Source: an uncultured Bacilli bacterium (lineage in GTDB: Bacteria > Bacillota_I > Bacilli_A > Izemoplasmatales > UBA1188). From it: a stretch of 64,000 nucleotides of DNA. Positions 36,422 through 57,146 of the stretch are shown piece after piece. The position numbers were made by a program, and so were the translations under genes. Below the pieces are notes generated by a model, which made no database searches, was not told the DNA's origin, and worked only from the letters and a program-made list of their open reading frames with translations. Each line of letters begins with the position of its first letter. Position 1 is the stretch's first letter. Location of the stretch: NCBI GenBank assembly GCA_905235635.1, contig CAJOMC010000002.1:76067-140066 (forward strand), in the 5' to 3' direction.

Positions 36422-36485
36422 CACCTCGGGCTTCATTATATATTAATAAATAAATTAATATCGGGCCTTCAGGCGAAAATAAAAA

Positions 36486-36515
36486 CATCAGCTAAATTAA
36501 TAACTGATGCTTCAA
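36486..36515 (-). terminator. Terminator of HTH gene
   Basis: Minus strand GCATCAGTTATTAATTTAGCTGATGTTTTTATTT. Confidence 0.7.
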
Positions 36516-36520
36516 TCACT

Positions 36521-36724: not shown

Positions 36725-36779
36725 TGTAACAACCTCCTCTGGTCAAACCAGGACGGTCAACAATCAGAAAATTGTTACA
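36725..36779. promoter_or_regulatory. Inverted repeats in 5' leader of HTH gene
   Basis: TGTAACAA...TTGTTACA outer arms overlap SD/start; inner AACAAT-ATTGTT and CTGGT-ACCAG hairpins. Confidence 0.5.
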
Positions 36780-36801
36780 CGTATATTATATCATATAATT
36801 A

Positions 36802-37461: not shown

Positions 37462-37466
37462 ATAAA

Positions 37467-38132: not shown

Positions 38133-38229
38133 GTTATTCCTCCTAAGTATCTAGTTACATCAAAATAGAGACTAACGAACAATCATATAAGTCATAGGCC
38201 TTTTTTAAAATCATAAAAAAATCTAAATA

Positions 38230-39213
38230 TTAATCATTTTCCTTGTTTTTTGAAGCAGGCATTAAAATATATGGAGTCATTCGTAAAAGCTTGACTAATT
38301 CATTTAACCAAATGTTAATTTTATCCCTGTTATCTTTTTTAGAAATCATTTTCAAAAACGAATTGTACTTGTTTTTTAGTGATGTCCCACTCATTTCTGA
38401 AATGGTAGTTTTGATTATATCTAGAGAACAAAACGAATTATTAGAATCAAGTTCATAAATTGTTTTAGTCGTAAAATCATTGATTTTTAGATTTTTTCTA
38501 GAACAACGAAGTCTTATTTCAGCAGATAATAGCACCAAAGGTAAGCCGTTATTATCAGTAGTTGTAACCTCTTTCACTAATTTATCATTAACATAAAATT
38601 CTTCCTTTATTAAATATGAATCAGTTTCTATATCTTTTATTCCAAGATTCTCGTGTGATGAATCACTTGAGTATGTTGAAATAAATTTAATCTTATTTGT
38701 AGACATAAAGTAAACAATATTAAACACTTCTGATAATAAGGATTCGGGAAAATTATTTAATGTAATCTTACGATTCCACTGTATTAATTGGTCTGCTGAA
38801 TATAATGCCCAATAATTAAATAAATTAATTGCAAAATATAATTCGTAACCATTTTTTCTAGCCCACTCAACTCTACTATTAAAATTACCGCTAGAAATAC
38901 TATATTCATCTTTTGATGTCGATTTTATTTCAACCATTATTTTTTTATCATTTTTTAAAGTAATAATTGCATCGCACGATTTTTCTCCAATATTTGTAGT
39001 GAATTCTTCATCGATTGGAATTATATCTTTGCAAACATTGCATATGTATAAATCTCCAATAAATTCATATTCGCGCTCAAGCCCTTTAATTCTATCTTCA
39101 AAGCTATTCGAATCTACCCCTAAGCCATTTAAAACGTTATTGAATTGATCTGCTGGTATTTCATCTTTTAGGGCTTTTAAAGCCTTAATTAATTCTATGC
39201 TAGGTTCCTTCAT
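38230..39213 (-). CDS. PD-(D/E)XK nuclease-like hypothetical protein
   Basis: SCDAIITLKNDKKIMVEIKSTS (D...ExK) preceded by CxxC. Confidence 0.55.
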   Translation of the reverse strand: MKEPSIELIKALKALKDEIPADQFNNVLNGLGVDSNSFEDRIKGLEREYEFIGDLYICNVCKDIIPIDEEFTTNIGEKSCDAIITLKNDKKIMVEIKSTSKDEYSISSGNFNSRVEWARKNGYELYFAINLFNYWALYSADQLIQWNRKITLNNFPESLLSEVFNIVYFMSTNKIKFISTYSSDSSHENLGIKDIETDSYLIKEEFYVNDKLVKEVTTTDNNGLPLVLLSAEIRLRCSRKNLKINDFTTKTIYELDSNNSFCSLDIIKTTISEMSGTSLKNKYNSFLKMISKKDNRDKINIWLNELVKLLRMTPYILMPASKNKEND

Positions 39214-39240
39214 ACCTTCCCCCCTTAGTTCTGTTATCGT

Positions 39241-39762
39241 TTATTTCAAGTTTAGTAAGACTACAACATCTTTATCACCAAGTAAATCAGTTAATTCGCT
39301 TTTAGATAAATTGATGTGTCCTAATTTCGTATAAGACCATGTATTTGAATCATAAAATATTACTATTTGATTAGCCGAATATAAAACTATATCTCCTGGA
39401 TTAGTAGTTATTCTAGTATCAGAGGATGGCAATGTAGAACCAATTGATCCTACCTGTTCAAACCCACCATACTTACTCATATTTATAGTTAATCCATCTT
39501 TAGCAAGATTCTTCAAAGCTTTTACTGAATCATTATCAGACCATATTACATCTACTTCCATGTCATCTATTTTCAATGTTAATTTCATAGTTTCAGTTTC
39601 ATCTTCCTTAGTTGTTGAATTATCATCTGATGGAGTAGTAATTGTTGTACTAGGCTCATCAGTATTTGATGGATTTGATGAATTATTATTCATGTTACAG
39701 CTAACTAAACAAAAAATTGCAATAAAGCATGCAATAATGATGCTATCTTTAAACAATCTCAT
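39241..39762 (-). CDS. Lipoprotein with cyclophilin-like domain
   Basis: Signal/lipobox LVSCN; MKLTLKIDDMEVDVIWSDNDSVKAL...YGGFEQVGSIGSTLPSSDTRITTNPGDIVLYSANQIVIFY. Confidence 0.75.
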   Translation of the reverse strand: MRLFKDSIIIACFIAIFCLVSCNMNNNSSNPSNTDEPSTTITTPSDDNSTTKEDETETMKLTLKIDDMEVDVIWSDNDSVKALKNLAKDGLTINMSKYGGFEQVGSIGSTLPSSDTRITTNPGDIVLYSANQIVIFYDSNTWSYTKLGHINLSKSELTDLLGDKDVVVLLNLK

Positions 39763-41568
39763 TTATTTTATTATTCCTTTCATAATTCCAATCAACTGTC
39801 TAGTTTTATCAGGATTTGGGAATGTTTCACTAAATCTTCTCTCAATAACTTCTTTAAAGTTAACATTATTTTTATTAATAAAAATGAATAACCTCTTTTT
39901 TGCGCGCGAAGCTGCAACATAAAATGATTTATTATTTTCATCGAAAATGTCGTTATTTATATCTGTAATAATAACATCATCAGCCTCTAATCCCTTAAAA
40001 GTAGGACACGTAAAAACTTTTGTTTTCTTGCCATTCATTTTAACAGTATTAGTGCCAGAATCATTAATGATTACATCTTTCAAATCTGATACCTTCAATG
40101 AATCAGCGCAAGAAATAATTACTCTGTCATTACTTGTTTCTTTTGATAATTTGTCGACAAGATTACCTATTTTTGTTTTTAATTCATCATCAGTATTATA
40201 GATATAAAAATTTGATGGTTCACCAGTCCAAGCCTTATCATATAAGACAGGCTTTAATTCAATTAGTGAATATGCTGTAGCAGCTATATTTTTTGTATTT
40301 CTACAATTTTTATATAAAGTCAATTTAGAATCAACATTTTGTATGTATGTAGGAAGCTTTTTAGAATTTACCAATTGGTTCTTATCATAGAAGATGAAAA
40401 AAGATGTATTTTTCTTATCATCAATAGGATTTTCTCCATATTCATAAAATAATTCTAGTATCTTTGAATCATCAGTTCTTTCACGCCCGAAGTCTTGACC
40501 TTCGTCAACGATAATATGTTGATACTCGAATTTATCTTCGATTATTTCCGTTTCAAGAATATCTTTTAAATCATAATAACTTAAAGATTCTAGCGATGTT
40601 TTACATTTCTTACATCCAAATGCATCTAAAGTATAAAAATCAACATTCTTTAAATCACTTGAATAACATTTGTGTAACCACTCTCGAAGATTTTTGTTAT
40701 AACAAAGAAATAAAACTCTTTCTCCACTATTAGATAGCCTTCTGGCTCTTTCGACAGCTACCAATGTTTTACCAGTACCACTTGCACCGCTTATAGCTGC
40801 AGTTCTTTGGTGTCTCAAGAAATCAAGAATTACGAACTGCTCATCTAGTAATTCTATATAAGTTTGTTCATAATCTTTTTTTACATTTACAATAGCTTTA
40901 AATGTTGGGCATAATACTTTACTATATAAATTCATAGCATCAGAATAGGACAATGAATGTTTATAACCAGGACCATCTTCGATAAGTTCTTCTTCATATT
41001 TACATACAATATGAACTTTATTCATACGTTCCATCAAAGTTTTTACTTGTGAGATTGTTTCATCTTTATACAACAATGCCTCACGAGTCATTATTATTTC
41101 TTTTACCACATTTGGACCAAAATCTGTATTTTGTATTTCTTCTTTAGTATATTTTGGAAACCACACTGCGACCATGAATTTACAACTATTAATATTATCT
41201 TTATATTCAGGATATGTTTCTCTTAACTTATTAAATAAATTATGTTGTCCAGAAAACGCCTGATCGAATGGATCTTTCATATTTATTTCTTTTACAGTTC
41301 CATTCTCATTTTTAACATACTTCCATTGTCCGTTTTCATTTCTAGAAACTCTAGCATTCTTACATTCTATAAAAAGGCAACCATAATTCGGGTTGAAAAT
41401 AAGAAAATCTATTTCATTTTCATTTAAGCCTTTATCTGGTATTAATTGAACTAATCTATACGAATGAAAGACATAGTAATCATTTGGCAATTTTTGAAGG
41501 GCCTCAAACATATCTTTTTCGCCACTTTTTGGTTCAAAATAACCATCTGTCGGAATCATAATAGCCAT
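39763..41568 (-). CDS. NERD nuclease-domain / UvrD-like SF1 helicase fusion
   Basis: N-terminal NEIDFLIFNPNYGCLFIECKN (NERD); GASGTGKTLVAVERARRL Walker A; VDEGQDF; VAASRAKKRLFI. Confidence 0.85.
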   Translation of the reverse strand: MAIMIPTDGYFEPKSGEKDMFEALQKLPNDYYVFHSYRLVQLIPDKGLNENEIDFLIFNPNYGCLFIECKNARVSRNENGQWKYVKNENGTVKEINMKDPFDQAFSGQHNLFNKLRETYPEYKDNINSCKFMVAVWFPKYTKEEIQNTDFGPNVVKEIIMTREALLYKDETISQVKTLMERMNKVHIVCKYEEELIEDGPGYKHSLSYSDAMNLYSKVLCPTFKAIVNVKKDYEQTYIELLDEQFVILDFLRHQRTAAISGASGTGKTLVAVERARRLSNSGERVLFLCYNKNLREWLHKCYSSDLKNVDFYTLDAFGCKKCKTSLESLSYYDLKDILETEIIEDKFEYQHIIVDEGQDFGRERTDDSKILELFYEYGENPIDDKKNTSFFIFYDKNQLVNSKKLPTYIQNVDSKLTLYKNCRNTKNIAATAYSLIELKPVLYDKAWTGEPSNFYIYNTDDELKTKIGNLVDKLSKETSNDRVIISCADSLKVSDLKDVIINDSGTNTVKMNGKKTKVFTCPTFKGLEADDVIITDINNDIFDENNKSFYVAASRAKKRLFIFINKNNVNFKEVIERRFSETFPNPDKTRQLIGIMKGIIK

Positions 41569-41572
41569 AATC

Positions 41573-44500
41573 TCACCTCAACAATTCTTTTACAAATTCT
41601 ACATAATCAAAAGAATCTGTTAATAAATAGCAATCAAATTTATTTTGAGAATTCACTAAATTATCATATGATTTTTTATTTTCAATAGTAAACAATAGAA
41701 TATTTCTATCCTTCCAAGCAAAATCAGCATATTCAACTTGACTACCATCATTAGGATTTAACACATAACCGTAACCATCTGGAGTTTCTGCTCGCTTAAT
41801 GCTTATTTCACTTATTAAACTAACTAGAGAGCTATTTGATTCACTTCCATCAATTGTTCCACTATTTATAAATTCATTTATATCTACCATTGTAAAATCA
41901 TATTGTGGATCTGATAATGCAAAATTTTTATTTTTATTCTTGATATTACTAATTATTACTGACAAAGCATTCTTTGCTAAGCCTCTTTTTATATGCTTAT
42001 GCAAACGTTGATTATTATATGTTCTTAAACAGTTATAACAAGATGTATCTTCATCGCAACAGTTTTGAGATACTTTAGCAAGTGCATTTTTTAATACTTC
42101 CATCAAAGACTTATCATCTTTTAATCTCTTAACATGACCTGCACCTCCAGCCACAGTATCAAATAATATAAATGAGTAAGGCTTTGCTAAATTTGTTTTA
42201 TAAATCATGCCTCCAATATCATTTCGTTCAATGTTGTAAGTCATACTAATTCCTTCAAGAAGAGCAAACAATACTGAAATTGCAGTGTCTTCATCAAACA
42301 TTTCATTAACTTTATTGAATGAAATCTTTACGATATCAGTTCTGTAGGAATGCCCTAAATGTATCAATTCAAGCTTGTTACCACACTTACAAAGCTTTCC
42401 TCTATATTCTCTATGTTCTAAAGTTTTAGTAGGCAATTGGTTTTTCTTATCAAGATCTGTATAACCACAATGTGGACAGAAATAAAATCTACTTTCATTC
42501 AATACTAGCAACTGTTCGTCCTTATGCTCAGATACATTCACGACATTATTTAGTTCATCGTTACTAGATAGATTATCACCTATATAATAAACATCACTCG
42601 CATATGTCTTAAATGGCTTAATTCTCCTTGATTCTTTATTCTTTCTATCTGCAACAAAACCATAAATAGGTGTTAAATAAGACTTAAGCTTGCCCATTGA
42701 AGTATCTAGTGTGGCACCACAATACTTACATGTATTATTAGAAACAAAATAGTTTTTATCTTCACTTGTATTTATAGTATGACATTTTTCACATTCGCAG
42801 TAAAAAGTTGCAGGCAACGAATAGCCATTATGAGGCAAGAATAAATATCTTGAAGTATATTTTCTTTCATCAACAATGACTTCAGAACCTGGAGCATATT
42901 CAGAAATTGCAACAGATAAATTTCTTGAAAGATTATAATCTTCGTTCATTTGTTCCTTATCATAGTCATAAATATAAAGTTCGACATTATCTACTGGGAA
43001 ACCATATCCTGGAATTACATTATATTTAGTAAAATATGTAATTAATGAATTTGGAGTATTCAATCTTCTAAGAGATTCTTTATATGAATTCGCCAATGAA
43101 TAATCTCTTTGATTTCTAGCGTATTCTTCTGCTTCTTTGTAAAGCTCAACAAGTCCATTTAAACCTTCAGTCATTTTGTTTAATGAACTTTCAGACATAT
43201 CAAGATAATTGATCCACTTAAAGCCACCATATTTACTAATCAATTGACTATCTTTAAGAACATACTTATCTACCATAGTACCTAATTTTGCAGGTTTAGA
43301 TTTAATATAATTTATAAATTTATTTGCGACATCATCTGATAAGAAATGCTCAACAGAATCAAAATCCTCAGTAAATTCAGGCTCTTTGAAGTACATTGAA
43401 AGAGCTGTTGCAGTTATATGTCTCATAATAATCTTATCATTGTCAACAACAAAATATGGAGGTTTAACAAGTCCTCTTATCATTTCAGCTGGATTTGAAA
43501 AATAAGTATAGTCATGTGAAGAAGTTCCACAGAATGTTAATACAAATGCAGAGGTTTCAGCCCTTCTACCTGCACGACCAGCTCTTTGCGCATAATTAGA
43601 AGGTGTAGGTGGGACATTTCTCATAAATATAGTATTCAAACCACCTAAATCAATACCCATTTCAAACGTAGTAGAACAGCTTATAAAATTAATTTTTCCA
43701 TTTTCACTCTTGAAATCATCTTGTATTTCTTTAGCCTCGTTTGCATTCATTTGAGCTGTATGCTCTCTACATACAAGTTTTTCAACAGGACGGTTCATAT
43801 ATTCATTACGATAATAGTTATCTTTATAGAATGCATCGTTATCTACATCGCACTCTATCAATTCACCATCGCAGTCTGCCTCAGTACATTTATTATTAAC
43901 GTTATAAAGAGTTAATTTATTACATTTTTGGCATTTATAAAATTTTAATTTTTTGTATGAAAACAAATCATAATTATTTGCTTTTATTACATATGTATTT
44001 GGATACTCAGGAGCTTCTGTATTTGGAATTAAAATTTCTTCTTCAATTGCAGTTTCAAAAATAGTTGTCATTAACAACTTTGCTTTATTATAATCATACC
44101 CTAAAGTTTTCATTATATATTTAAGGCCATTATTTGTTCTTCCGTCATCAACTGGTAAAAATGATTTAACTGGATAATATTTTGGCTTATCAGAATCTTT
44201 TGTTTTCTTTGTATCCTGCTCCATGATATACATTTTTCTTTGACGATATCCCAATAATTCTTTTTTCTCTTCAGGATCATCACAAAGAATGGTTTCATAT
44301 TCAATAGCAGGAGCCATCCTAAATAATGTAAATAACTGAGTAGTAATATCTTTAAATTGTTTTCCAGTAATATTATCGAAACCTGCACCTTGAAGTGCTT
44401 CAGTCAGTGCGTCTTCATCAGCATAATTGCCTTTATTTAAATTTAATTTAAAAGCAAATAAGCCAATACCTTCTCCACTATTTCTACCATCAACTAATAA

Positions 44501-46714
44501 TAATTCCCATAAAGCTGTTGCTTTGGCATGCTTTATTGCTTCTTCTTCAGTATAGTGGAGTTTATTTCTAAAAACATCATCCAATTTTGTTACAAGTTGC
44601 AGATATGATATTTTTTCATGGTTGTTTTCTTTTAACAGTTCCCAGATCAATGTTTTCTTTAAGAATCTATCATTATTAGAATTCAAGAATTTTGAAAAGA
44701 ATGCTGCTTGTTGTCTAGAGTCAGAAAAGGCAAGAAATTGTTTTCTTCCGGCCACCTCTTTAGGTTTGCTCTTAAATAATGAGTTTGTTTGAGCTGCTTT
44801 CTTAATTACAGGATAATTCATAGACTCATAAAGAATTTGGGAAATTAAAGTAGTGGCTCTATCTTTACCAACGTGGAATCCCATAATAACTCCACCATTA
44901 TTTGCTTTATATTCACAAATAGGGCATCTATGAATATTGTTCGTCACAATATCTTCATCATCTAAATCTTGTTCATCTTTTCCAATAAATTTATATACAA
45001 CAGTTTTATATGTATCAAAGCACTCACAATCAGATGTTGTAATAGCTGATTTTGCACTCTTTATATATCCACATTTTGCACACAAATAATACTTTTCAAA
45101 GTTTTGATCTGTATCAAGATCATTTTTCTCTTCATCCGTCAAACAATCACCAATTAGATAATATTCAAGTCTTTTAGCCTTATCAGCATATGATTCATCG
45201 ATATCTATTTCATCATCAATACATAAATAATTATTTTCTGTAATACCCATAATATATGGAACTTTACAGTTTTGGCAAATACCGATTTTAAATGCTTTAA
45301 ATCCATCTATTTGATTAACCGTTAACAGAGATAGATTTTTTTTGTTTCCAAGTGTAATGAATGCACCATCTGGAGCCTTCATAAACATATGGTATTTAAT
45401 ATCATATAGTTTTAAAGGGTACTTGCTATCATTTGATTGTGACTTAGTTATTAACTCGACTAATGAAGTCAAATCATCTATTTTAAAATTATAAAAATTC
45501 CTAAATACATCAAAAAAATCTCCAACTCTATTAGTCCAATGGTAAAGATTTTGAGTATTCTCATCCTTAATCAATAAATTATATAAATTTACTTTAACAG
45601 AAACCGAATCATCGTATTGATTGTATTTTTGATACACCTGTTTAAATTCTTCTATATTTTCAATATTATCTAATAATATTTTATAGTCTGAAGCTTCAAT
45701 TTCGTATTTTGGAGTAATATTATTTGAGTGCCTAATTGCAAATATAATATCATCATCAGTAAATTTAGATGAAGTAAGTCTTGATGCAAAATCGATAATA
45801 TCAGGCAAATCTTCTTTTCCCCTGCCTAATGTAGCACTGGTTAATACAAATTGAACATTTTTATTGGCTGTTCCTAATAAGCGTCTCAATAGCAAAGAAA
45901 TTTCAATGCCAAGAGCTCCACGATATATGTGTGCCTCATCAAGCACGATAAATTTTAAATGTTTCAAAGCATCTTGAGATATCAAACTTTCATCTGAAGG
46001 TCTAATTAATAAATACTCAAGCATTGAATAGTTTGTAAAGAGAATTTGAGGAGGATTAGCACGCATTTCTTCACGTGTTAAAATTTCATTCTTAGATGGC
46101 TCTCCATACTTTCTTTTATATAATTCTATTTGTTTTTTACCATCAATAGATTTTCTATCTTCAGGAGTTCTTCCAGTATAAAAACCAAATTTGATTTCCT
46201 CATAGTTTTTTAAAAAAGATCTTAGTCTATCGATTTGGTCGTATACTAATGCATTTAATGGAAACAAGAATATTGCTCTAATACCTGGTTCTTTATCTCC
46301 TTTATTTAATTCCTTAATAAGTTCATTAATAATTGGCAGCATAAAACATTCAGTTTTACCTGAACCAGTACCTGTTGTAACAACTATGTTTTTACCATTG
46401 CCTATTCTTGTAAAAGCATTTACTTGATGAGCATAGCATGGTCTATCAAAGTCCAAATCTCCGACCTTCAAAAATTCTTTTTCAAAAACATTATCCTTAA
46501 TTAACTCATTAATAGACTTAGAGGGTTCAAAAGGAAGAGTTGAAGATAAATAAGGGCCTTTATATAATTTTGATTCTAATTCTGTAAGTCTATCATTATA
46601 AAGTTTTTTATATGTTTTATCCCTAATATCAAATGTTGATCTTAGATATGTAGAAAACTTTGACTTTATAAAATTAGTCTGATCAATTTGATTATTGAAT
46701 TTCTTTTCCATCAT
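41573..46714 (-). CDS. 1713-aa SF2 (DEAD/DEAH) helicase with zinc clusters and DUF1998-like C-terminus
   Basis: TTGTGSGKTECFMLPI, DEAHIYRGALGIE, SATLGR, QRAGRAGRR; C-terminal DTVAGGAGHVKRL...CCDEDTSCYNCLRTYNNQ. Confidence 0.9.
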   Translation of the reverse strand: MMEKKFNNQIDQTNFIKSKFSTYLRSTFDIRDKTYKKLYNDRLTELESKLYKGPYLSSTLPFEPSKSINELIKDNVFEKEFLKVGDLDFDRPCYAHQVNAFTRIGNGKNIVVTTGTGSGKTECFMLPIINELIKELNKGDKEPGIRAIFLFPLNALVYDQIDRLRSFLKNYEEIKFGFYTGRTPEDRKSIDGKKQIELYKRKYGEPSKNEILTREEMRANPPQILFTNYSMLEYLLIRPSDESLISQDALKHLKFIVLDEAHIYRGALGIEISLLLRRLLGTANKNVQFVLTSATLGRGKEDLPDIIDFASRLTSSKFTDDDIIFAIRHSNNITPKYEIEASDYKILLDNIENIEEFKQVYQKYNQYDDSVSVKVNLYNLLIKDENTQNLYHWTNRVGDFFDVFRNFYNFKIDDLTSLVELITKSQSNDSKYPLKLYDIKYHMFMKAPDGAFITLGNKKNLSLLTVNQIDGFKAFKIGICQNCKVPYIMGITENNYLCIDDEIDIDESYADKAKRLEYYLIGDCLTDEEKNDLDTDQNFEKYYLCAKCGYIKSAKSAITTSDCECFDTYKTVVYKFIGKDEQDLDDEDIVTNNIHRCPICEYKANNGGVIMGFHVGKDRATTLISQILYESMNYPVIKKAAQTNSLFKSKPKEVAGRKQFLAFSDSRQQAAFFSKFLNSNNDRFLKKTLIWELLKENNHEKISYLQLVTKLDDVFRNKLHYTEEEAIKHAKATALWELLLVDGRNSGEGIGLFAFKLNLNKGNYADEDALTEALQGAGFDNITGKQFKDITTQLFTLFRMAPAIEYETILCDDPEEKKELLGYRQRKMYIMEQDTKKTKDSDKPKYYPVKSFLPVDDGRTNNGLKYIMKTLGYDYNKAKLLMTTIFETAIEEEILIPNTEAPEYPNTYVIKANNYDLFSYKKLKFYKCQKCNKLTLYNVNNKCTEADCDGELIECDVDNDAFYKDNYYRNEYMNRPVEKLVCREHTAQMNANEAKEIQDDFKSENGKINFISCSTTFEMGIDLGGLNTIFMRNVPPTPSNYAQRAGRAGRRAETSAFVLTFCGTSSHDYTYFSNPAEMIRGLVKPPYFVVDNDKIIMRHITATALSMYFKEPEFTEDFDSVEHFLSDDVANKFINYIKSKPAKLGTMVDKYVLKDSQLISKYGGFKWINYLDMSESSLNKMTEGLNGLVELYKEAEEYARNQRDYSLANSYKESLRRLNTPNSLITYFTKYNVIPGYGFPVDNVELYIYDYDKEQMNEDYNLSRNLSVAISEYAPGSEVIVDERKYTSRYLFLPHNGYSLPATFYCECEKCHTINTSEDKNYFVSNNTCKYCGATLDTSMGKLKSYLTPIYGFVADRKNKESRRIKPFKTYASDVYYIGDNLSSNDELNNVVNVSEHKDEQLLVLNESRFYFCPHCGYTDLDKKNQLPTKTLEHREYRGKLCKCGNKLELIHLGHSYRTDIVKISFNKVNEMFDEDTAISVLFALLEGISMTYNIERNDIGGMIYKTNLAKPYSFILFDTVAGGAGHVKRLKDDKSLMEVLKNALAKVSQNCCDEDTSCYNCLRTYNNQRLHKHIKRGLAKNALSVIISNIKNKNKNFALSDPQYDFTMVDINEFINSGTIDGSESNSSLVSLISEISIKRAETPDGYGYVLNPNDGSQVEYADFAWKDRNILLFTIENKKSYDNLVNSQNKFDCYLLTDSFDYVEFVKELLR

Positions 46715-46722
46715 CTATCCTC

Positions 46723-49700
46723 CTACTTCATACTCAAAATTGCACTCAAAATTTTTAATCCATTTTTTAGTTTTAAATTATATTTTTTGTTATCTTTAAT
46801 CCTATAAATCTTTATAGCACTTTCTTCAGAATTTAAAGTTATAGGACTAACATATACATTTTCTAACACAATTTTATTTCCCATTCCAACAATGTTCCCT
46901 AATAAATAATATTCATCATCTAACTGTTCTATTCTTATAAAATTAATCCAATTATTGTTAGGCTGATATTTAGAATTATCATCTAAAATGAAATCTTTTA
47001 TTTGTAATCTTCTTTTTAAAAAATAAGACGTAGTTCTAATTGGTTTTGAAGTATAAAACGACTTTTCCTCATAGCCACCGTTGATTTTAGGTTTAAATAA
47101 TAAAATCGTAAATGAATTAAAGATGCTTTTATTAATTTTTATATTAATCGCTTTTCCACTTGTTATCTCATCATTATAAATTATTTTGTTAAATCCAGAT
47201 GGACATATCTCCATTTTCAATTTGTTTGTACCTATAAATACCGTATTAACAACTATTTCACTAGTAACATCATTAAAATATATATTTTGTTTTTCAACTT
47301 TCACTTCCAAATCATCAATGCACACCTTAGGAAAAGTCTTAAATGGCACTTCGTCGTATTTCTTAAACAATGATATACCTGAAGCTGGCATGTGTAGTGA
47401 GGCAGTTATATAATGAACACCATCATAATGATTAATAAGGCTATTTTTATCTAATTCTATTGATTCCCCACTAGATATTTGAACTTTGTGTAATATATTT
47501 TCTGTATTAGTTATTGACAACAAAAGCCACAATTTAATCTTTCCTTCAAAAAGGATATTTGCCTTTATTTTTCCAGAGGATTTATCATATTCAATAATAG
47601 AATCGTTCTTAATAAAAGGCTTATACCAAACTTTTAAATATTTGCTTCTTGTTCCATATTCAAAACTTATCTTCAAAGAAATTGCATCTTTTAATGTCTT
47701 TAAATAATCAACATTGATCTCATATTTAAATTGATCTAAATCGTTTTGAACATAATTTAGTTTTCTTTTTCTTATTGTTGATTTTTCATCAATGACATAA
47801 GGAATTAAATTGTCTGGGCCACATACAAAAATTGAATTTTTAGTTTGATTCAATTCAAATAAATAAAATTTCCAATCAATGTCATGCCATACTAGCCCAT
47901 CAATACTATAAGAAATTGTTGATGGATAAATATTTAATTTTCCATGCCCTAAACCTTTAACAAAAGCGTCATACTCTAATTTTGATGTTCCGTATGGATA
48001 ATCAAATGATATTGTTTCATTTAAAAATTTAGATGAAGTTTCATAAATAATTGATTCATTTGTTTTTGAAACGAAGCACTTCGATAAAGTATCATCATAA
48101 ACAAATACTAGATCAGAATTCTTGATCATTTTATTTGTTTTTATGTTATATATTTTAATATTATGTAACCCTGAATCTAAACCATAAATCTTAATTAAGT
48201 ATGCAAACAAACCGTTATACTCGTTAGAGAATAAATATATTCTATAATTAATATCGTTGTCTTCGCCAAAAGTTATAATGTTATCATCTACTGATATGTA
48301 AATATCTTCCTTATCACAAGATGCTTGGAATAATACAGAAATATCCTTATAAATTTTTTCTTCTTTTCCTTCCATAGTTGTAAAAGAAGCCCAAGGAACT
48401 TGATAACCTATTAATTTAGGATCTTTAATTTTGAAGAATACATAAGGTTCATTATCAAATCTAAAGACTTCTTTTGAATTAACTTCAAAAATAGATATAT
48501 AGTAATCTTCTTTTTTAGATACAATTACAGCACTACTTCCACTCTCGTCATTGCTATCTAAAGTATGAGATACAACAAATATATCTCCATCATATTCCGT
48601 ACCAGGTTTAACTTCATTTCCATTTTTATCAAAGAATAATACTTTTCTAAATAATCTTTCCTTAGATGAGTATATTTCTTCACCATCACAAACTATTTTG
48701 TAGGAAAGTTTATCAATTGGTGAACAATCCAACAAGTATTTTTGTCTTTTAATAATGTATCCACCCATAGAAACATCATCATTAAAAAGAACATCGTCTG
48801 GTCCATCGACATCATATGATTTAATTAATTTTGAATCAGAATATATCTCAATTTGAACTTTTTGAGGATCATATGAATCATCCATACAATACTCACCAGT
48901 GTTAAGATACAAATACTTTTGATTTTGAAGCTTAAAATATGGTCTAGATAATAATCTACTTTGCTCATATTTTGTTTTTTCCTTAGTATTATTATCAAAC
49001 TCATCAACCCATGAATCATATCCTTCTCTATAATATGGTTCTACAATAAAAGAATCCTCATGTCTTGTTAAATGATTTATTATTAATCTAATACAATGTG
49101 ATATTATTTTTATAAGAGCCTCTAGATTAAAACCACTATAAATACAAGATTGAGTATATTTTGACATTAAATACTCAGTACCTTTTATACTATCAGAATC
49201 ACTCAATAAATCTTTTCTCTTTAAAGCACGTAGACATTCTTCAACTTTTGCCTCAATTTGGTCATTTGAAACATCCTCATCAAATAAAAGTTTTTTCTTA
49301 TAAATATCATATGATATTTTGTATAGTTGTGAAACTCTATAATGAGGGACTGAAGCATAAATAATTGGAACTGCATTATACGAACTATCATGGAAATATT
49401 GAACTTCTTTTCTATAAGGTTCCAATATCTTATACATTGAATTTCGAATAGAATTATCTGTAAATTGGTATTCAGTCTCACTTCTATGTTTTCTATAATT
49501 GCTAAAAATTTGTGTATGTAAATCTCCATCATAATATTTTAGAGCTAGGTATGATAAAAGAATAATGACTTCTATTTTACAGTCATCTTTTAAATAATAC
49601 CCATTCATTGCTTTTTCTAAATAGCGAAAACCTTCAGCACATAATGTTTCCTCAAATGTTTGATTATCAAAATTATTAATAAGTAATTGAGTAATACTTT

Positions 49701-50052
49701 CATTATTTTTGAAAAGTTTAATAACACTATTTATATCTTTTAGTGATGAAACATCATCGGAAATAATTTTCTTTTCAATTATAGGAACTTCTACTTTAAC
49801 GCTTGGAACTAAGGTGTTTTTTAATTCATTATAAAAAGAGACGGTTTCTTCATTTTCAAATTCAAGAACATTTTTTTCAACTGCTATAGTTGCAGAAAAT
49901 GACTTGTTCACTTGAATACCATTAACAATAAAAACAATATCAAAATAAATGGTACTTCCAGATAATCTTACTTTACTAATCGTTCCTTTGCCATACATTT
50001 GGCTAATAATAGATTGGTTTTCTATTTTTGATATTAGTTCTTGTTGTGTCAT
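46723..50052 (-). CDS. 1109-aa protein of unknown function, operonic with helicase
   Basis: 8 bp upstream of helicase start; no domain recognised; beta-rich-looking middle region. Confidence 0.85.
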   Translation of the reverse strand: MTQQELISKIENQSIISQMYGKGTISKVRLSGSTIYFDIVFIVNGIQVNKSFSATIAVEKNVLEFENEETVSFYNELKNTLVPSVKVEVPIIEKKIISDDVSSLKDINSVIKLFKNNESITQLLINNFDNQTFEETLCAEGFRYLEKAMNGYYLKDDCKIEVIILLSYLALKYYDGDLHTQIFSNYRKHRSETEYQFTDNSIRNSMYKILEPYRKEVQYFHDSSYNAVPIIYASVPHYRVSQLYKISYDIYKKKLLFDEDVSNDQIEAKVEECLRALKRKDLLSDSDSIKGTEYLMSKYTQSCIYSGFNLEALIKIISHCIRLIINHLTRHEDSFIVEPYYREGYDSWVDEFDNNTKEKTKYEQSRLLSRPYFKLQNQKYLYLNTGEYCMDDSYDPQKVQIEIYSDSKLIKSYDVDGPDDVLFNDDVSMGGYIIKRQKYLLDCSPIDKLSYKIVCDGEEIYSSKERLFRKVLFFDKNGNEVKPGTEYDGDIFVVSHTLDSNDESGSSAVIVSKKEDYYISIFEVNSKEVFRFDNEPYVFFKIKDPKLIGYQVPWASFTTMEGKEEKIYKDISVLFQASCDKEDIYISVDDNIITFGEDNDINYRIYLFSNEYNGLFAYLIKIYGLDSGLHNIKIYNIKTNKMIKNSDLVFVYDDTLSKCFVSKTNESIIYETSSKFLNETISFDYPYGTSKLEYDAFVKGLGHGKLNIYPSTISYSIDGLVWHDIDWKFYLFELNQTKNSIFVCGPDNLIPYVIDEKSTIRKRKLNYVQNDLDQFKYEINVDYLKTLKDAISLKISFEYGTRSKYLKVWYKPFIKNDSIIEYDKSSGKIKANILFEGKIKLWLLLSITNTENILHKVQISSGESIELDKNSLINHYDGVHYITASLHMPASGISLFKKYDEVPFKTFPKVCIDDLEVKVEKQNIYFNDVTSEIVVNTVFIGTNKLKMEICPSGFNKIIYNDEITSGKAINIKINKSIFNSFTILLFKPKINGGYEEKSFYTSKPIRTTSYFLKRRLQIKDFILDDNSKYQPNNNWINFIRIEQLDDEYYLLGNIVGMGNKIVLENVYVSPITLNSEESAIKIYRIKDNKKYNLKLKNGLKILSAILSMK

Positions 50053-50102
50053 AGTTTTCGCCTCTCTTTATATGATGTTGTTATATCGTATTTTAATTTA
50101 TC

Positions 50103-53100
50103 TTATTTTCCTGACACTAATGTCTTATATAGTTCTTTTGCCATAATATCCATTACAGCCTTTTGGAATTGATCGTTTCCAAGTAATCTTTGGAAAGCAT
50201 CATCGTTCTTTGTGTAACATTCAACTAATACTCTTTCAAATTCTTTAGGGAATATTGATTTAATAAACATTTGAGCATCATTAGTTTTGGCATACTCAGT
50301 AAGTTTTTTCTTAACAACAGGATCTCCCATAAGCATCTGGAATACACTATCAAGTGCTACCTTATCAGCTGCTGAAAAATCATCTTGATATTTCTCGTTA
50401 ACCTTTTCAACAATTCTTTCTAAAGTATCAGTCTTATTACTCTTTTTAGCTGGCTTAGCTCCTTTACCAGGAATAACTTCGCCACCTTCTTTTTTAAGCT
50501 CAATAGCGCCTTTAAAAGTTTCTTTTAATTTAGCGTATTCAAGTGATACTTTACCTGTTAAATCAAACACAGGATATTGTGTCTTAGGTAATAATCTAAT
50601 TAAATGAGAAATATATAAATAATCTTTAAATAAGTCTTCATCATTAATTCTTACAAGCTGAGTTACAAATCCATATGAACGAATAAACTTCATCATTGTA
50701 TCTCTAGCAAGTAGTCTCTTATCATCATCTAAATCAGCGTAATTATCTACAGCTGGTTTCATAACACTTACAAGTTTTCCAATTGCGGAGTCATCTTGTT
50801 TTTTCTTATCAGAATTAACTTTCATAATTGCATAGAATTTATCTATATCCTCATCATTAAAGATTGCAAACTCATTTAATTTGCTTCTTAAATCATAAAC
50901 TCTATTTACATCACTACTTCCAACTAATGTAGTCTCTTCATAGAAAGGTTGGAATGATTCTTTAATGCTGTCTGATGTATTAGCAAAATCAAGCACGAAA
51001 GTATCATTTTTAAATGGACAAGTTCTATTTAATCTAGATAATGTTTGAACCGCATTAACTCCTTTTAATTTTTTATCTACAAACATTGAATGAAGTAATG
51101 GTTCATCATAACCTGTTTGATATTTATCAGCAACAACCATAATGTTGAAATCATCACTCTTAAAGGCTTTTCTAAACTTAGCATCAGAGTTGATTTTCTT
51201 ACCATCAGGATATTCATTCATTTCAGCTTCGATATATTCAGTATCATCACCATCAAATTTGACTTTACCTGAGAATGCAACTAAAACACCACATCCTTTT
51301 GTTTCATCTGGATGCTTCGATAAATACTCTTTAACTGCTTGATAATATAAAACGGCACTTTGTCTAGAGTCAGTAACAATCATAGCCTTACCATGACCGT
51401 TAATCTTCTTTCTACCATTATTAAGGAAGTTATCCATAATCATATCTACCTTTTGAGAAATGGTAAATTCATGTTGTTTATAATATTTAAATAATGCACG
51501 TTTAGCTTTTTCTTCTAATAATTCAGGATTATCTTCTGTATTAGTGATTAACTTAAATGCTTCTTTAATAGTTACATATGTACTTAAAACATCTAAAATA
51601 AAGCCTTCCTCTATTGCTTGTCTCATAGAATAAGTATGGAATGGCTTTTTCTTTTCATCACCAATACTAGTTCCAAATAACTCTAGTGTTTTATTAATTG
51701 GTGTTGCAGTAAACGCAAAGAATGATTGATTCTCATGATGTCCTTGACCTAAGATATTTAATAATTCTTCAGTCTCTTCTATTGCATCAGGATTCATATC
51801 ATTTTCTTCTGCAAATTCCTTCTTTTCTTTTTCTACATCAATTAAAGAACTTCTTAATGTTCTTGCAGATTCTCCACTTTGACCTTGATGTGCTTCATCA
51901 ATGATAACAGCAAAGTTCCTGCCTTTTAATTCATCAAAATCTTTATAAGCATATAAGAACTTTTGAATAGTACAAATAATAATCTTTTTCTTATCATTAA
52001 TAGCATCAACAAGACCTCTAGAGCCTTTCTTTTGGGTAATACACTCAACTAATCCAGCTTTATGGTCAAATGAATTAATTGTATCTTGTAATTGTGAATC
52101 TAAAACTATTCTATTAGTGACAATAATTACTGAATCAAAAATATATTTATCATCTTTATCAAATGCAGATGCTAGTCTATAGGCTATCCAAGCAATAGAA
52201 TTAGATTTACCTGATCCAGCTGAATGCTCAATTAAATAATTTACACCAGCACCTTTTTCTTTAACATCTGCTAAAATCTTTTTAACTACATCATATTGAT
52301 GATATCTTGGAAATATAATTTTCTTTGTAATATAGGATTTACCATTCTTTTCTTCTTTTTCTTCTGTGATAGTAATAAATTTAGCAATTAAATCTATCAT
52401 TGAATCAACGCTGAAGACTCTTTCCCAGATATAAGAAGTTGGATATCCTTCATCATTTTTAGGATTTCCTTTTCCTCCTGGATTACCAGCACCATTTGAA
52501 CCTTGATTGAATGGTAAGAATCTTGTATATTCACCTTTTAATTCAGTTGTCATAAATGCATCATATAAATCAATTGCAAAGTAACATAAGAATCTTTGAC
52601 CGAACTTAAAAATAGGTTCTTTAGGATCTCTATCCTCTTTCCATTGTCTCATCGCATTATTGACATCTTGGCCTTTTAATTGGTCCTTTAATTCGAATGC
52701 AAATAAAGGAATACCATTAATAGATAGAACAGTATCTATTGTGTTATTGTTGTTTTTTGAATAAGGGAATTGTCTTGTAATACCACAGATATTTCCCTCA
52801 TATAATTTTACTAAATCTTGATTTAAATTAGATGATGGTTTGAAATAGCATAATTTAATTTCAATACCCATATCCTTAATTCCTTTTTTAAGGACATCAA
52901 GAACATTACTTTCTGATATAGCTGTATTTACTCTTCTAGTTAATTTATCTACAGCTGAAGCACCATATAACTTAGTATATCTTGCCCATGCTTTAGGTTG
53001 AGTCGTAGAAACAAATTCTTCTAAAACATCAGAAAATAACATTTTTTCTTTATCGTACGTTGAAGGCAAAACCTTTCTAAAACCATGATTTAAAAAATGT

Positions 53101-53141
53101 GTTTCGATATCTTGTTCAAATCTTTTTTCACTTGTATCCAT
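50103..53141 (-). CDS. hsdR: Type I restriction endonuclease subunit R
   Basis: TIDTVLSINGIPLFAFELKDQ (nuclease), EHSAGSGKSNSIAWIA, DEAHQGQSGESA, TATPINKTLELFG. Confidence 0.96.
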   Translation of the reverse strand: MDTSEKRFEQDIETHFLNHGFRKVLPSTYDKEKMLFSDVLEEFVSTTQPKAWARYTKLYGASAVDKLTRRVNTAISESNVLDVLKKGIKDMGIEIKLCYFKPSSNLNQDLVKLYEGNICGITRQFPYSKNNNNTIDTVLSINGIPLFAFELKDQLKGQDVNNAMRQWKEDRDPKEPIFKFGQRFLCYFAIDLYDAFMTTELKGEYTRFLPFNQGSNGAGNPGGKGNPKNDEGYPTSYIWERVFSVDSMIDLIAKFITITEEKEEKNGKSYITKKIIFPRYHQYDVVKKILADVKEKGAGVNYLIEHSAGSGKSNSIAWIAYRLASAFDKDDKYIFDSVIIVTNRIVLDSQLQDTINSFDHKAGLVECITQKKGSRGLVDAINDKKKIIICTIQKFLYAYKDFDELKGRNFAVIIDEAHQGQSGESARTLRSSLIDVEKEKKEFAEENDMNPDAIEETEELLNILGQGHHENQSFFAFTATPINKTLELFGTSIGDEKKKPFHTYSMRQAIEEGFILDVLSTYVTIKEAFKLITNTEDNPELLEEKAKRALFKYYKQHEFTISQKVDMIMDNFLNNGRKKINGHGKAMIVTDSRQSAVLYYQAVKEYLSKHPDETKGCGVLVAFSGKVKFDGDDTEYIEAEMNEYPDGKKINSDAKFRKAFKSDDFNIMVVADKYQTGYDEPLLHSMFVDKKLKGVNAVQTLSRLNRTCPFKNDTFVLDFANTSDSIKESFQPFYEETTLVGSSDVNRVYDLRSKLNEFAIFNDEDIDKFYAIMKVNSDKKKQDDSAIGKLVSVMKPAVDNYADLDDDKRLLARDTMMKFIRSYGFVTQLVRINDEDLFKDYLYISHLIRLLPKTQYPVFDLTGKVSLEYAKLKETFKGAIELKKEGGEVIPGKGAKPAKKSNKTDTLERIVEKVNEKYQDDFSAADKVALDSVFQMLMGDPVVKKKLTEYAKTNDAQMFIKSIFPKEFERVLVECYTKNDDAFQRLLGNDQFQKAVMDIMAKELYKTLVSGK

Positions 53142-53142
53142 A

Positions 53143-54069
53143 TTATTTTGCCTCCTTCATAATCATTTCTATTTCTTCTTTTGTAATATTTTTAATTTCT
53201 CTAACAGTGTGAAGAGCCATACCATTAGATGACTTTGTGCCTAAAAACAAAACAAATAATTGATAATAATAGTTATTTCCTAGTTGATCCTCAACTTCTA
53301 AAAACAATGAATTAGGATTATCAATAAATCTAAAATTTAATAAACATTTAGCACTTGGCAAAACTGTTGTGTTACCTTCCATTTTTACCCATGTAGAATC
53401 ATGATTTACCCTTTTAATTTCAAAAGCAGATAAGTTTGAATTTTCAAGTTCTACATAAACATCGCATGCATCTTGTAACTGTTCAGACGAATCAGAAATG
53501 CAAACTCTTTGTACTACTGAATCGAGTTTAGGTTCTTGTCTTAGCATATTATATGCAAATAATGGTCTAGCCTTCTTTATTTCATCTTCTTTCCTATCTT
53601 TATCAGATTTTTTAATTGTTAGAATAACTCCAACTAAAGTCAATAATCCACCATATACGGCAGCTACTATAGGAATAACAATTTCTTTAACATCAGCATT
53701 GGGTATAATATAAATCAAGTATACAGTTAAAACAGTTCCGACGATAAAATCTTGAACCATCAGCCATCTTTCTAGCCAATTTCTTTGTCTAGGATATGAC
53801 ATGGCATTTCCAAGATCCATAAAAATTATTATCATAATTAATCCGCCGAATATATACTTGCAAATCATATTATTAGTAAACATGGCCATATAGAAAAAAT
53901 TCCATAGCCATAAGTAAAGAATCATAATTACTACTCGCATGTTTGCAACTTTATCCATCTCTGGCGTTAGTTTAATTTTAAACATTTTTACAGACTGAAT
54001 CTTGCTATATGGTACTGCAAAAAGTATAAACGGAAATAAAAGAGCAAAAGATATCCAATAACCTATCAT
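53143..54069 (-). CDS. Multi-TM membrane protein embedded in type I R-M operon
   Basis: Several hydrophobic helices in the first half, soluble C-terminal domain; ATG-A overlap with hsdS, 1-bp gap to hsdR. Confidence 0.8.
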   Translation of the reverse strand: MIGYWISFALLFPFILFAVPYSKIQSVKMFKIKLTPEMDKVANMRVVIMILYLWLWNFFYMAMFTNNMICKYIFGGLIMIIIFMDLGNAMSYPRQRNWLERWLMVQDFIVGTVLTVYLIYIIPNADVKEIVIPIVAAVYGGLLTLVGVILTIKKSDKDRKEDEIKKARPLFAYNMLRQEPKLDSVVQRVCISDSSEQLQDACDVYVELENSNLSAFEIKRVNHDSTWVKMEGNTTVLPSAKCLLNFRFIDNPNSLFLEVEDQLGNNYYYQLFVLFLGTKSSNGMALHTVREIKNITKEEIEMIMKEAK

Positions 54070-55358
54070 GCATTTACCTCCTTTTTCCCCGTAATATATT
54101 CATAAATAAGAGATTTTTTATATTCTTCAAGTTTCTCTATTTTTTCTTTTTTTATTTCAATAATGCTATCAATTGTCTTGCATTTTTCATTTAGTCTTTG
54201 CACAATCTGATTTTGGACATCAATAGGTGGTAAAATAACATGTCCTTGGCTAAGAAGTTTTTTAGTCAAGCTAAACAACTTTACGCCACCAACTCTACAT
54301 CTAAAAAACTCTCTCCAGTCGTCAGACAAAAATTGGTATGAAAGATAGTATGGATTAAAATTGCCTTTATTTTTTAAAATAATACAATGATAACCCGCAA
54401 ATATTATTTCATCACTATCAATATGAATAAAATCACATGTCCCTTTTAGGTCTTCAGATGTATCAGCAAAAATATAATCATGTTTTTTAACAATACATTC
54501 GGGATTATTTTCTAAATATTTATCTTCCACAAATCTATATAACTTTTCATCAATGGATACAGATTTATTGAATTTAGCATGAATTTGCCCATAACTTATT
54601 ACTTTAACACCTGAATCTACTAAATTTTCTTTTGTAATAGGCAACCCCTTACCAAAATCAAATAAACTTTTCATTGGTAGAACATTCCAATTTGAAGGTA
54701 TTTTTACAATCCTATTTGCAGTTGAACCCAATGATCCATTTTTTTCTTTTTGAAAAACCTCATCGCCAATTAAACTCAATCTATACTCTTCAAGTTTTTC
54801 AATTTGTAGATTTTCAATGTTTATTAGAGAATTGATTTCATCGCTTTTTCTTTTCAAATAATCAACTATTTTTTCTTGCTCATTGCTCGGTGGAAATGCG
54901 ACAATTCTTTTTAAAATGTCTGCTGAAGACAATCTTAAACGAATTTCCAAAATACCATTTGCATACCTTCTAAGTTCTCTTTGAAATTGATTTAATTGAA
55001 ATATGTAGTTTAGAAAGTCAATGTTTTCATTTTCTTTTGGCTTAAAAACATAATAAACTGGGCTAACACAGCCATAATAATCGCATCGGCCTACAGAACC
55101 AATAAGGATATTCATGCTATTAGCAACTATTGTATTAGGGTAAGCCAATTTATATTCAGCAATATTTTCTTTTGCCTTATTACCTTGTTCCCCCTTTTCC
55201 TCATATGGTATAACGCCTAATTTATTAGTTAGTGACAATACTTTTTCAGTTTTTATTGGGTTATTTGACTCTTTTATCTCATCAAGATGCCATTGAATTC
55301 TTTCTAATACCCAATTATCAGGGATTTCACCAATCCATTCAATTCCACTATATTTCAT
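54066..55358 (-). CDS. hsdS: Type I restriction specificity subunit S (two TRDs)
   Basis: YSGIEWIGEIPDNWVLERI...FPPSNEQEKIVDYLKRKSDEI...IPSNWNVLPMKSLFDFGKG...LPPIDVQNQIVQRLNEK. Confidence 0.95.
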   Translation of the reverse strand: MKYSGIEWIGEIPDNWVLERIQWHLDEIKESNNPIKTEKVLSLTNKLGVIPYEEKGEQGNKAKENIAEYKLAYPNTIVANSMNILIGSVGRCDYYGCVSPVYYVFKPKENENIDFLNYIFQLNQFQRELRRYANGILEIRLRLSSADILKRIVAFPPSNEQEKIVDYLKRKSDEINSLINIENLQIEKLEEYRLSLIGDEVFQKEKNGSLGSTANRIVKIPSNWNVLPMKSLFDFGKGLPITKENLVDSGVKVISYGQIHAKFNKSVSIDEKLYRFVEDKYLENNPECIVKKHDYIFADTSEDLKGTCDFIHIDSDEIIFAGYHCIILKNKGNFNPYYLSYQFLSDDWREFFRCRVGGVKLFSLTKKLLSQGHVILPPIDVQNQIVQRLNEKCKTIDSIIEIKKEKIEKLEEYKKSLIYEYITGKKEVNA

Positions 55359-55361
55359 GGT

Positions 55362-57146
55362 CTATTCCCCCAATATCTTCTTCATTAAATCTTGCTCTTG
55401 ATTAGAAAGCTCTTTAAATTCAGCAAAAATATCATCACTTCTTCTAGGTTCAACAAACTTATAGAAGATTCTTGTAAATGGTATTTCATAACCAATCTTA
55501 TCTTTTGTTCTATCCATAAAGGCGTGTTCGTTGAAAGGTAAAACATTCTTATCAAAATATTTCTCTACATCCTCGGTTAACGGTATTGTTTCATTATCTG
55601 TCTTGCCTTTAATTGCCTGTTTCTTACCCTTCTTTAATACTTCATTGCCTTTATCATCAGTTTCAGCAGTTTCAACAGTAACTTTTGTATACCCAAAATA
55701 AGCATTATCAAAAACCTTAGATTCAACAAATAATTCATCTTCATTGAATTCTAAGTTATCGAAACTATTATATGCTTTTACAATTAGACTAATCGCTTCA
55801 TCAGAAAGATCTACTCTCTTATTACCGATATTCTTTCTTCTTTTTACATAACACTTAGAAGCATCAATCAACTGAACTTTACCTAATCTTCTATCTTCTT
55901 TGCCTTCTTTACCTGTGATTACCCAGATATATGTAGCAATACCAGTATTGTAAAATAAATCATTAGGTAATTGAATAATCGCTTCTAATCTATCATTTTC
56001 AATTATGAATTTTCTGATATTAGATGGTCCAGAACCTGCATCACCATTAAATAATGATGAACCGTTTTGAATAATAGCCATTCTACCAGTAGGTTTTAAT
56101 TTCTTTAAACCATTTTGTAAGAATAGCATTTGTCCATCACCAATTGCTGGTAATCCAGCCTCAAATCTACCTGATTCACCAAGTTTAGCTTCCTTTTCAA
56201 CTGAATCTTTTTCTTTCTTCCAGTCAATGCCAAAAGGTGGATTAGAAATAATATAGTCAAATGTATAACCTTCAAATTGGTCATTAGATAATGTATCGCC
56301 GAACTTCATATTGTCAGCATCGCCACCACGAATTAAAGTATCTGCTTTAGCAATAGCATATGTTTCGGGATTAAACTCCTGACCAAAGCAAGTCAAGTTA
56401 ATAGATTCATTAATATCTTGTAATCTTTCATCAAGACATGTAAGCATCTGAGATGTACCCATTGTCATATCATATGCAGTCTTAGACCCACCATTTTTCT
56501 TCAATTCTTCTTTATCGTTTACAACAAGTAATTCAGTCATTAAATAAATAATATCTCTTGCTGTAAAGTGAGCTCCGGCTTGTTCATCGTATGACTCTGA
56601 GAATTTTCTAATTAACTCTTCAAAGATATAGCCCATATCTTGAGCCGTTACTACATTAGGTGAAAAATCAGCTTTCTTAGCATTAAACTCATTAATAATT
56701 GTATATAAAAGATCATTCTCACTCATCTTATCTATTTCTTTAAAGAAATCAAAACGTTGAATGATATCTTTAACATTATCACTAAAAGCTTGTAGATAAG
56801 ATGTGAAGTTTTCTTTAATATTATCTGCATCAGCAATTAATCCAGCAAAATCAAACTTTGATGTATTATAAAAATCATGCTTTGCAACATTTTTTAAAAT
56901 AGCATGTCTAGTCTTATCATTTACTTCCTTATTTGAACTATTAAGCTCGTTATTCTTTTCAACAACTGCCTTCTTAGTATCTCTTAGAGCATCATCAAAT
57001 CTTTTAATAACGGTCATAGGTAAAATGACTTTACCATATTCATGTGGTTTATATTCACCATACAAATGAGTAGCAATTTCCCAAATAAGATTTGCTTTCT
57101 CTTGTATATTAATATTTGTTTGTTTTTGTAATTTATCTATAGCCAT
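55362..57146 (-). CDS. hsdM: Type I DNA methyltransferase subunit M
   Basis: FTARDIIYLMTELLV, YDMTMGTSQML, ISNPPFGIDWK (NPPF). Confidence 0.96.
   Translation of the reverse strand: MAIDKLQKQTNINIQEKANLIWEIATHLYGEYKPHEYGKVILPMTVIKRFDDALRDTKKAVVEKNNELNSSNKEVNDKTRHAILKNVAKHDFYNTSKFDFAGLIADADNIKENFTSYLQAFSDNVKDIIQRFDFFKEIDKMSENDLLYTIINEFNAKKADFSPNVVTAQDMGYIFEELIRKFSESYDEQAGAHFTARDIIYLMTELLVVNDKEELKKNGGSKTAYDMTMGTSQMLTCLDERLQDINESINLTCFGQEFNPETYAIAKADTLIRGGDADNMKFGDTLSNDQFEGYTFDYIISNPPFGIDWKKEKDSVEKEAKLGESGRFEAGLPAIGDGQMLFLQNGLKKLKPTGRMAIIQNGSSLFNGDAGSGPSNIRKFIIENDRLEAIIQLPNDLFYNTGIATYIWVITGKEGKEDRRLGKVQLIDASKCYVKRRKNIGNKRVDLSDEAISLIVKAYNSFDNLEFNEDELFVESKVFDNAYFGYTKVTVETAETDDKGNEVLKKGKKQAIKGKTDNETIPLTEDVEKYFDKNVLPFNEHAFMDRTKDKIGYEIPFTRIFYKFVEPRRSDDIFAEFKELSNQEQDLMKKILGE

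Follow-up and report, generated by a model that had tools for sequence, protein, structure and literature searches.

DruE is the component common to all Druantia types (PMC13192584); type IV, for example, is defined by DruE, DruF, and DruL (PMC8565338). Druantia type III is described as having two components, with the nuclease provided by DruE itself. The E. coli partner protein DruH, which comprises helical regions and three Ig-like domains, is a probable sensor that diverges faster than DruE (PMC13192584). DruH (1132 aa) and DruE (1667 aa) of M. smegmatis have been studied experimentally (PMC13316683). A study of the YprA family, which names ARMADA, BRIGADE, and TALON as well as Druantia types III-A and III-B, describes a Druantia type III-like branch, whose helicases mostly lack a nuclease domain and sometimes carry a Vsr domain (PMC12458937). 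The locus analyzed here, from a 64,000-nucleotide stretch of DNA of an uncultured Bacilli bacterium (the window), is closest to this type III-like branch. As in the branch, in which most members have no DruE nuclease domain and some have a Vsr-like one, a DruH-position gene directly precedes DruE; unlike the branch as portrayed in parts of the main text of the study, the window adds a third gene, an SF1 helicase with a NERD or, in other loci, an ArmD-like head, that is coupled to a tail on DruE (PMC12458937).

The operon consists of three intact ORFs, all on the minus strand and separated by 8 nt and then 4 nt, with the following genes and neighbors.

50103..57146, minus strand: type I R-M operon (HsdM, HsdS, a 308-aa protein, HsdR), directly upstream of the three-gene operon, as genomic context
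46723..50052, minus strand: DruH-position protein P0003, 1109 aa, defined by an iterative HMM family, AlphaFold, and Foldseek, without a library match
41573..46714, minus strand: DruE, a YprA-family SF2 helicase of 1713 aa with many CxxC pairs, from PADLOC, Pfam, and PDB relatives
39763..41568, minus strand: NERD-SF1 helicase-nuclease, 601 aa, the third component, from Pfam NERD and UvrD_C and from PADLOC
39241..39762, minus strand: cyclophilin-like lipoprotein, directly downstream of the third gene

A purine-rich, RBS-like stretch precedes the start of both the DruE gene and the NERD-SF1 gene. HsdR lies upstream of the P0003 gene and ends 50 bp from it, and the two operons are possibly cotranscribed; a 308-aa protein of unknown function is encoded between hsdS and hsdR (53143-54069, minus strand). 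The lipoprotein start codon abuts the third-gene stop codon with no gap. The lipoprotein gene also follows a Druantia I-type operon in another locus (L041) and is part of the mobile chassis, not a system component. Much of what the initial annotation had read from the letters was borne out: three large, tightly spaced genes directly behind a type I R-M operon, a 1109-aa protein without recognized domains (no Pfam, PADLOC, or PHROGs match at the cut-offs used), an SF2 helicase with CxxC clusters and a DUF1998-like region (an MZB/DUF1998 match, with CxxC pairs conserved), a NERD/SF1 helicase (Pfam NERD and a UvrD-type SF1 core), and no visible DrmB, DrmC, or DISARM methylase. Conserved co-occurrence of the three genes had been named beforehand as a test; the order P0003 family, DruE, SF1 helicase was found again in divergent genomes, and the association of the three genes thus exceeds chance.

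The PADLOC search that had been suggested returned nothing for the 1109-aa protein, while the 1713-aa protein matched DruE3 (E=1.3e-172) and DruE1 (E=1.3e-170), with DISARM DrmA (E=6e-16) and Dpd DpdJ more than 140 orders of magnitude weaker than the DruE models. Pfam detected DEAD, Helicase_C, and MZB, and the relatives with solved structures were 9tu7 (2108 aa, E=3e-79), 9wae (1970 aa), and MrfA/YprA (6znp, E=1e-19). The PADLOC models, Pfam domains, and solved relatives together identify the protein as the DruE of a Druantia system. Its predicted domains are as follows.

45815..46432, minus strand: RecA1/DEAD domain, residues 95-300, with GTGSGKT and DEAH (Pfam; motifs invariant in seven DruE proteins)
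43562..43786, minus strand: helicase C-terminal (RecA2) core, residues 977-1051, with QRAGRAGR (Pfam; comparison of the seven DruE proteins)
42026..42265, minus strand: MZB/DUF1998 zinc domain, residues 1484-1563 (Pfam PF09369, E=5.4e-12)
41576..41932, minus strand: C-terminal tail, residues 1595-1713, predicted to be degenerate PD-(D/E)xK/Vsr-like (census, AlphaFold model, hhalign)

Many of the CxxC pairs are kept across relatives. A C-terminal PLD-like nuclease was not found on the window DruE, in which the MZB domain is followed by only about 120-150 aa with a PD-(D/E)xK-like model. The comparison with DISARM made in the initial annotation was not supported (DrmA E=6e-16 against DruE 1e-172). 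The locus resembles DISARM in placing a YprA-family helicase beside R-M genes; unlike DISARM, with its split DrmA-DrmB, the window helicase is unsplit and far closer to DruE than to DrmA, and neither DrmB, DrmC, nor the DISARM methylase had a PADLOC match among the scanned genes (38230-57146). The partners of Druantia I, II, and IV (DruA-D, DruM/F/G, DruF/DruL) also had no PADLOC match among the genes of this interval. Since the helicase is a DruE, the system is a Druantia variant and not a kind of its own, and the earlier claim of an undescribed defense operon is only partly borne out. The locus is very probably a multi-gene defense operon.

The first gene had no match in Pfam (E<=1) and none in PADLOC or PHROGs (both E<=0.1), and a single sub-threshold match in NCBIfam (E=0.04). 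A single match of P0003 to Glr2806 was dropped as it had no significant stretch. Direct searches found no relatives in genome_contigs, in plasmids, or in 90 genomes of the same order, and P0003 was not found in six genomes of the same genus. The family surfaced only via the neighbors of DruE relatives, which were gathered as 11 regions of the same class and 80 loci from genome_contigs (91 loci, designated by L numbers); in most of these, a gene encoding 770-1970 aa immediately precedes druE. An iterative profile started from P0003 converged on 67 proteins upstream of DruE, with no match to reversed sequences. In the reciprocal direction, runs seeded with a mycobacterial or bacillar member recovered P0003 in all but one case, a strict run from L104 (E<=1e-6) that lost the window protein; the other nine runs retained it. 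The mycobacterial proteins of 1123-1134 aa that precede DruE are members of this family, and by similar size and place the experimentally studied M. smegmatis DruH likely belongs to it as well. Unlike the window, mycobacterial DruH-DruE loci (PMC13316683) consist of two genes, with no tail and no third gene directly after DruE.

No similarity between the P0003 family and E. coli DruH (STY4851/ECs_5259 family) was detected by HMMER or hhalign. PADLOC matched nothing for P0003 and for nearly all relatives tested, none of which matched DruH, and a PDB profile search with the family was without a match. The AlphaFold model of P0003 (pLDDT 75, pTM 0.49) comprises, from N to C terminus, a small beta domain, a helical region (approximately 100-370), tandem Ig/FnIII-like beta domains (approximately 370-900), and a poorly modeled C terminus. 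Foldseek matches were to Ig/FnIII arrays and phage tail proteins; their TM-scores were low, and they are informative for the overall architecture only. P0003 is the fastest diverging of the three proteins (tree distance between the window and L043 of 1.39, as compared to 0.47 for DruE and 0.71 for the NERD-helicase). According to these models, P0003 fills the DruH position as a member of a different family with a similar predicted architecture. The arrangement is reminiscent of E. coli Druantia type III (PMC13192584), in which a large helical and Ig-like partner is followed by DruE and the genes overlap or nearly touch; unlike that system, the window partner is not homologous by HMMER or hhalign, DruE has no PLD nuclease, and a third gene is present.

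The 601-aa product of the third gene joins a NERD domain (Pfam, 2.2e-11) to a UvrD-type SF1 helicase (UvrD_C).

41206..41526, minus strand: NERD nuclease head, residues 15-121 (Pfam)
39868..40872, minus strand: SF1 helicase core, residues approximately 233-567, with GASGTGKT, DEGQD, NCRNT, and YVAASRA (sequence, Pfam)

Its best PADLOC match is RTasNERD-Hel (3.5e-43), and Nhi is absent from the 16 PADLOC families that it matched, so that the Nhi-like character first suggested for it was not upheld; unlike stand-alone Nhi, the window gene is part of an operon. Residues D54, E68, and K70 do not vary in any of the NERD-headed proteins (that of the window and its 13 aligned relatives). In three loci (L072, L105, and L077) the NERD head is missing and an ArmD-like head is present instead; the third genes of L072 and L105 show 42% full-length identity to ArmD, and that of L077 shows 35%. 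ArmD is described as a GajB-like helicase with a RelE-like head that is essential for ARMADA defense (PMC12458937). The window third gene has the position and SF1 core of ArmD with a NERD head, and ArmD homologues occupy the same slot in L105, L072, and L077. As compared to ARMADA type II (PMC12458937), the window shares a YprA helicase with an additional degenerate C-terminal domain and, directly after it, an effector-headed SF1 helicase; it differs in having no BrxHII-like helicase and no PglX-like methylase among the flanking genes, and NERD as the head. As in TALON (PMC12458937), a YprA helicase is combined with a NERD nuclease; unlike TALON, NERD is fused to an SF1 helicase, and Pfam scans of most ORFs in 38230-61350 found no TPR-CSD or TATA-binding-protein genes. 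A further combination of the same parts is present on a viral contig (L138, IMGVR_UViG_3300028591_007675, 4824-14318), with DISARM-like DrmA, DrmB, a NERD-helicase, and a P0003-family protein, followed by a serine recombinase.

Most relatives of the locus consist of two genes, with DruE ending within 33 residues of window position 1580, just past the zinc domain. In a minority, DruE is extended by 120-153 residues (392-394 in two loci) and is followed by an SF1 helicase, the gene for which lies at -8 to +13 nt from druE in all 18 third-gene loci. One candidate (L080) was rejected as a third-gene locus, its gene resembling the DruE-type helicases of other loci and not SF1, and the third gene of L122 encodes a different, PbeA-like helicase. 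Among the 70 loci with enough flanking sequence, the tail was present in 17 of the 18 third-gene loci and in 0 of the 52 others (Fisher p=2e-15, from counts that lack phylogenetic independence). The one exception, L085, has the third gene and a tail-less DruE. On the DruE tree, parsimony placed nine changes for the third gene and eight for the tail; among close relatives, L051 and L057 have both, and their sister L050 has neither, its DruE stopping inside the linker that precedes the tail.

The tail, which the initial annotation had overlooked, is modeled in the window with an alpha-beta-beta-beta-alpha-beta order, as in the PD-(D/E)xK core (pLDDT 82-93). Foldseek returned no significant fold match for it, the best being PvuRts1I (E=0.39). 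A first tail profile recovered nine members only, and the remaining tails were therefore compared by hhalign against 300 random controls, which scored at most 20.6. The C-terminal 75 residues of ArmC from E. coli (ARMADA II) scored 34.3 against the tail family, and the tails of L094, L072, and L055 scored 28.6, 26.6, and 22.5. The scores of the L077 (20.1) and L084 (15.4) tails fall inside the control range, and by sequence these two are not clearly homologous to the window tail. For the long tails of L072 and L105, the alignment to ArmC spans 364 columns (hhalign E=2e-17) and includes a Vsr-like PDF...DG..FH motif.

Distances among DruE cores correlated at 0.90 with those of the DruH-position proteins, as compared to 0.63 with those of the NERD-helicases. 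The NERD-helicases of L065, L068, and L075 cluster with those of L047, L103, L051, and L057, while the corresponding DruE cores are spread over separate major clades; the DruE-core split, when imposed on the alignment of NERD-helicases, was rejected (deltaL 69, AU p=5.9e-6). Over 14 loci with short tails, and with modest support in the tail tree, tail distances followed those of the NERD-helicase given the DruE core (partial rank correlation 0.72, p=0.0002) and only weakly those of the DruE core given the NERD-helicase (0.21, p=0.02). The tree conflict and partial correlations indicate that the tail traveled or co-evolved with the helicase and not only with the rest of DruE. Because the tail and third gene are neighboring DNA, joint transfer without contact could explain part of their co-occurrence.

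The operon lies in an island that also contains the type I R-M operon, an Abi_2 protein, a viperin, and cassette-chromosome-type recombinases, and that looks like an SCC-type element. Window positions 33433-39686 are 94.1% identical at the DNA level, over 6.3 kb, to positions 18-6265 of L041, whose genome belongs to a different family of that class. The identity ends within the 5' part of the lipoprotein gene, upstream of which L041 carries a Druantia I-type operon (DruE1, split DruD) in the slot of the window operon; Druantia types therefore replace each other at one site. In L039 (251-3244), an HsdR 58% identical to that of the window directly precedes a Druantia I-type operon, and Druantia behind type I R-M is seen repeatedly in the class of the window. 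Features of the island observed alongside the operon were as follows.

31651-32709, minus strand: Fic/DOC family protein at the island edge, 68% identical to a protein near the L035 Druantia locus
33815-35278, plus strand: cassette-chromosome-type serine recombinase
35612-36436, minus strand: prokaryotic viperin near the operon (NCBIfam viperin_w_prok, above cut-off)
37467-38132, minus strand: Abi_2 protein, whose gene shares 4 nt with a gene of 222 aa; the latter has a GSGSRN stretch and is nucleotidyltransferase-like by eye only; the pair (36802-38132) is a possible two-gene abortive-infection unit
38230-39213, minus strand: protein of 327 aa, weakly matching an Hjc-like nuclease of the PD-(D/E)xK type (E=6e-5) and 98% identical to its L041 counterpart
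59080-61350: DUF3987/PriCT_1 primase-like gene adjoining the two ORFs that follow (L149 is also cited for the island)
63161 to past the window end, plus strand: pair of large, overlapping ORFs at the opposite side of the island, of which the first resembles the serine recombinase at 33815-35278

A copy spanning the end of DruE and the genes for the NERD-helicase and the lipoprotein was also seen in L123 (NZ_LR215045.1, Mycoplasmopsis arginini NCTC10129 'plasmid 2'). It is fragmentary and frame-broken, 96-98% identical at the DNA level to window 39263-42362, and has IS transposase genes nearby; it is either a recent transfer or a contaminating contig in the record.

The gene identities and order, the co-occurrence of tail and third gene, the incongruent third-gene history, and the kinship with ArmD and ArmC were computed here; the sensing role, docking, DNA cleavage, and phage defense we infer. 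The locus is probably a three-gene Druantia variant of DruH-like protein, DruE, and NERD-SF1 helicase, in which the DruE tail docks an exchangeable nuclease-helicase module. By analogy with the described systems (PMC13192584, PMC13316683), the DruH-like protein, with its helical and tandem Ig-like regions, would sense infection, probably via late phage structural proteins, and DruE would load onto intermediates of phage DNA whose 3' single strands are exposed, and would then translocate. The window DruE, having no C-terminal nuclease of the kind found in E. coli DruE, would use its degenerate tail, proposed here as a docking platform for the third protein, to hold the separate SF1 helicase, and the NERD head of the docked helicase (D54, E68, K70) would cut DNA. 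The tail and SF1 gene would form an exchangeable module passed between DruE lineages, whose ArmD-like version also serves ARMADA type II. The chances are about even that a portable effector cartridge of this kind, a degenerate Vsr-like tail docking an SF1 helicase with an exchangeable NERD- or ArmD-type head, is common to ARMADA II and several Druantia III-like lineages among the YprA-family defense helicases and has moved as a unit.

The same three proteins could instead include, as the third, a back-up effector that cuts host DNA (or RNA, with the ArmD-like head) and so causes death or arrest of infected cells in which DruE has failed. Exchange of the NERD head for a RelE-like predicted RNase head (head type after PMC12458937) fits a general toxic effector, and for BREX and Dnd systems a suicidal back-up role of NERD has been suggested (PMC12839542, PMC10853773). 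We nonetheless consider this role rather unlikely, as ARMADA II, with its ArmD homologue, is reported to protect without host death, and ArmD there is essential and not a back-up (PMC12458937).

The locus might also combine two independent neighboring units, a Druantia III-like system of two genes and a NERD-helicase that acts autonomously. NERD-helicases without DruE do exist, in three loci of the same class (L146-L148), in L139, and in L137, where a TmtA homologue (1907 aa) is directly followed by a NERD-SF1 helicase (4271-11722), and the NERD-helicase of L085 adjoins a tail-less DruE. Against independence, the gene keeps its close spacing to druE in 18 of 18 loci and tracks the DruE tail, tail distances follow those of the NERD-helicase beyond the DruE core, and the closest NERD-helicases in the class sample (E<1e-40) all adjoin DruE; this reading appears unlikely. 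An MrfAB-like DNA-repair operon is highly improbable: DruE is related to YprA/MrfA (6znp), but the DruE models are the best matches by a wide margin, the locus sits in a defense island with type I R-M, viperin, and Abi_2, and P0003 was not found in the six same-genus genomes.

A third SF1 gene was not found in parts of the main text of the YprA-family study (PMC12458937), and a literature text search for Druantia with NERD or UvrD yielded no account of the three-gene arrangement. Because no description was found in the literature searched, including those parts, we conclude that the arrangement is a new Druantia variant with an exchangeable module of tail and helicase-nuclease. As the PADLOC DruH models miss the first gene, such loci are probably overlooked by current annotation. 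For a Druantia variant in which the tail docks the third protein, deletion of the tail is predicted to match loss of the third gene in its effect. A nuclease domain is absent from many DruE proteins of the III-like branch; in the window variant, phage DNA may be destroyed by a separate helicase-nuclease plugged onto the dead nuclease domain of DruE. Docking would explain what the inactive nuclease tails of YprA-family helicases, otherwise puzzling, are for, and the shared part ties Druantia to ARMADA II.
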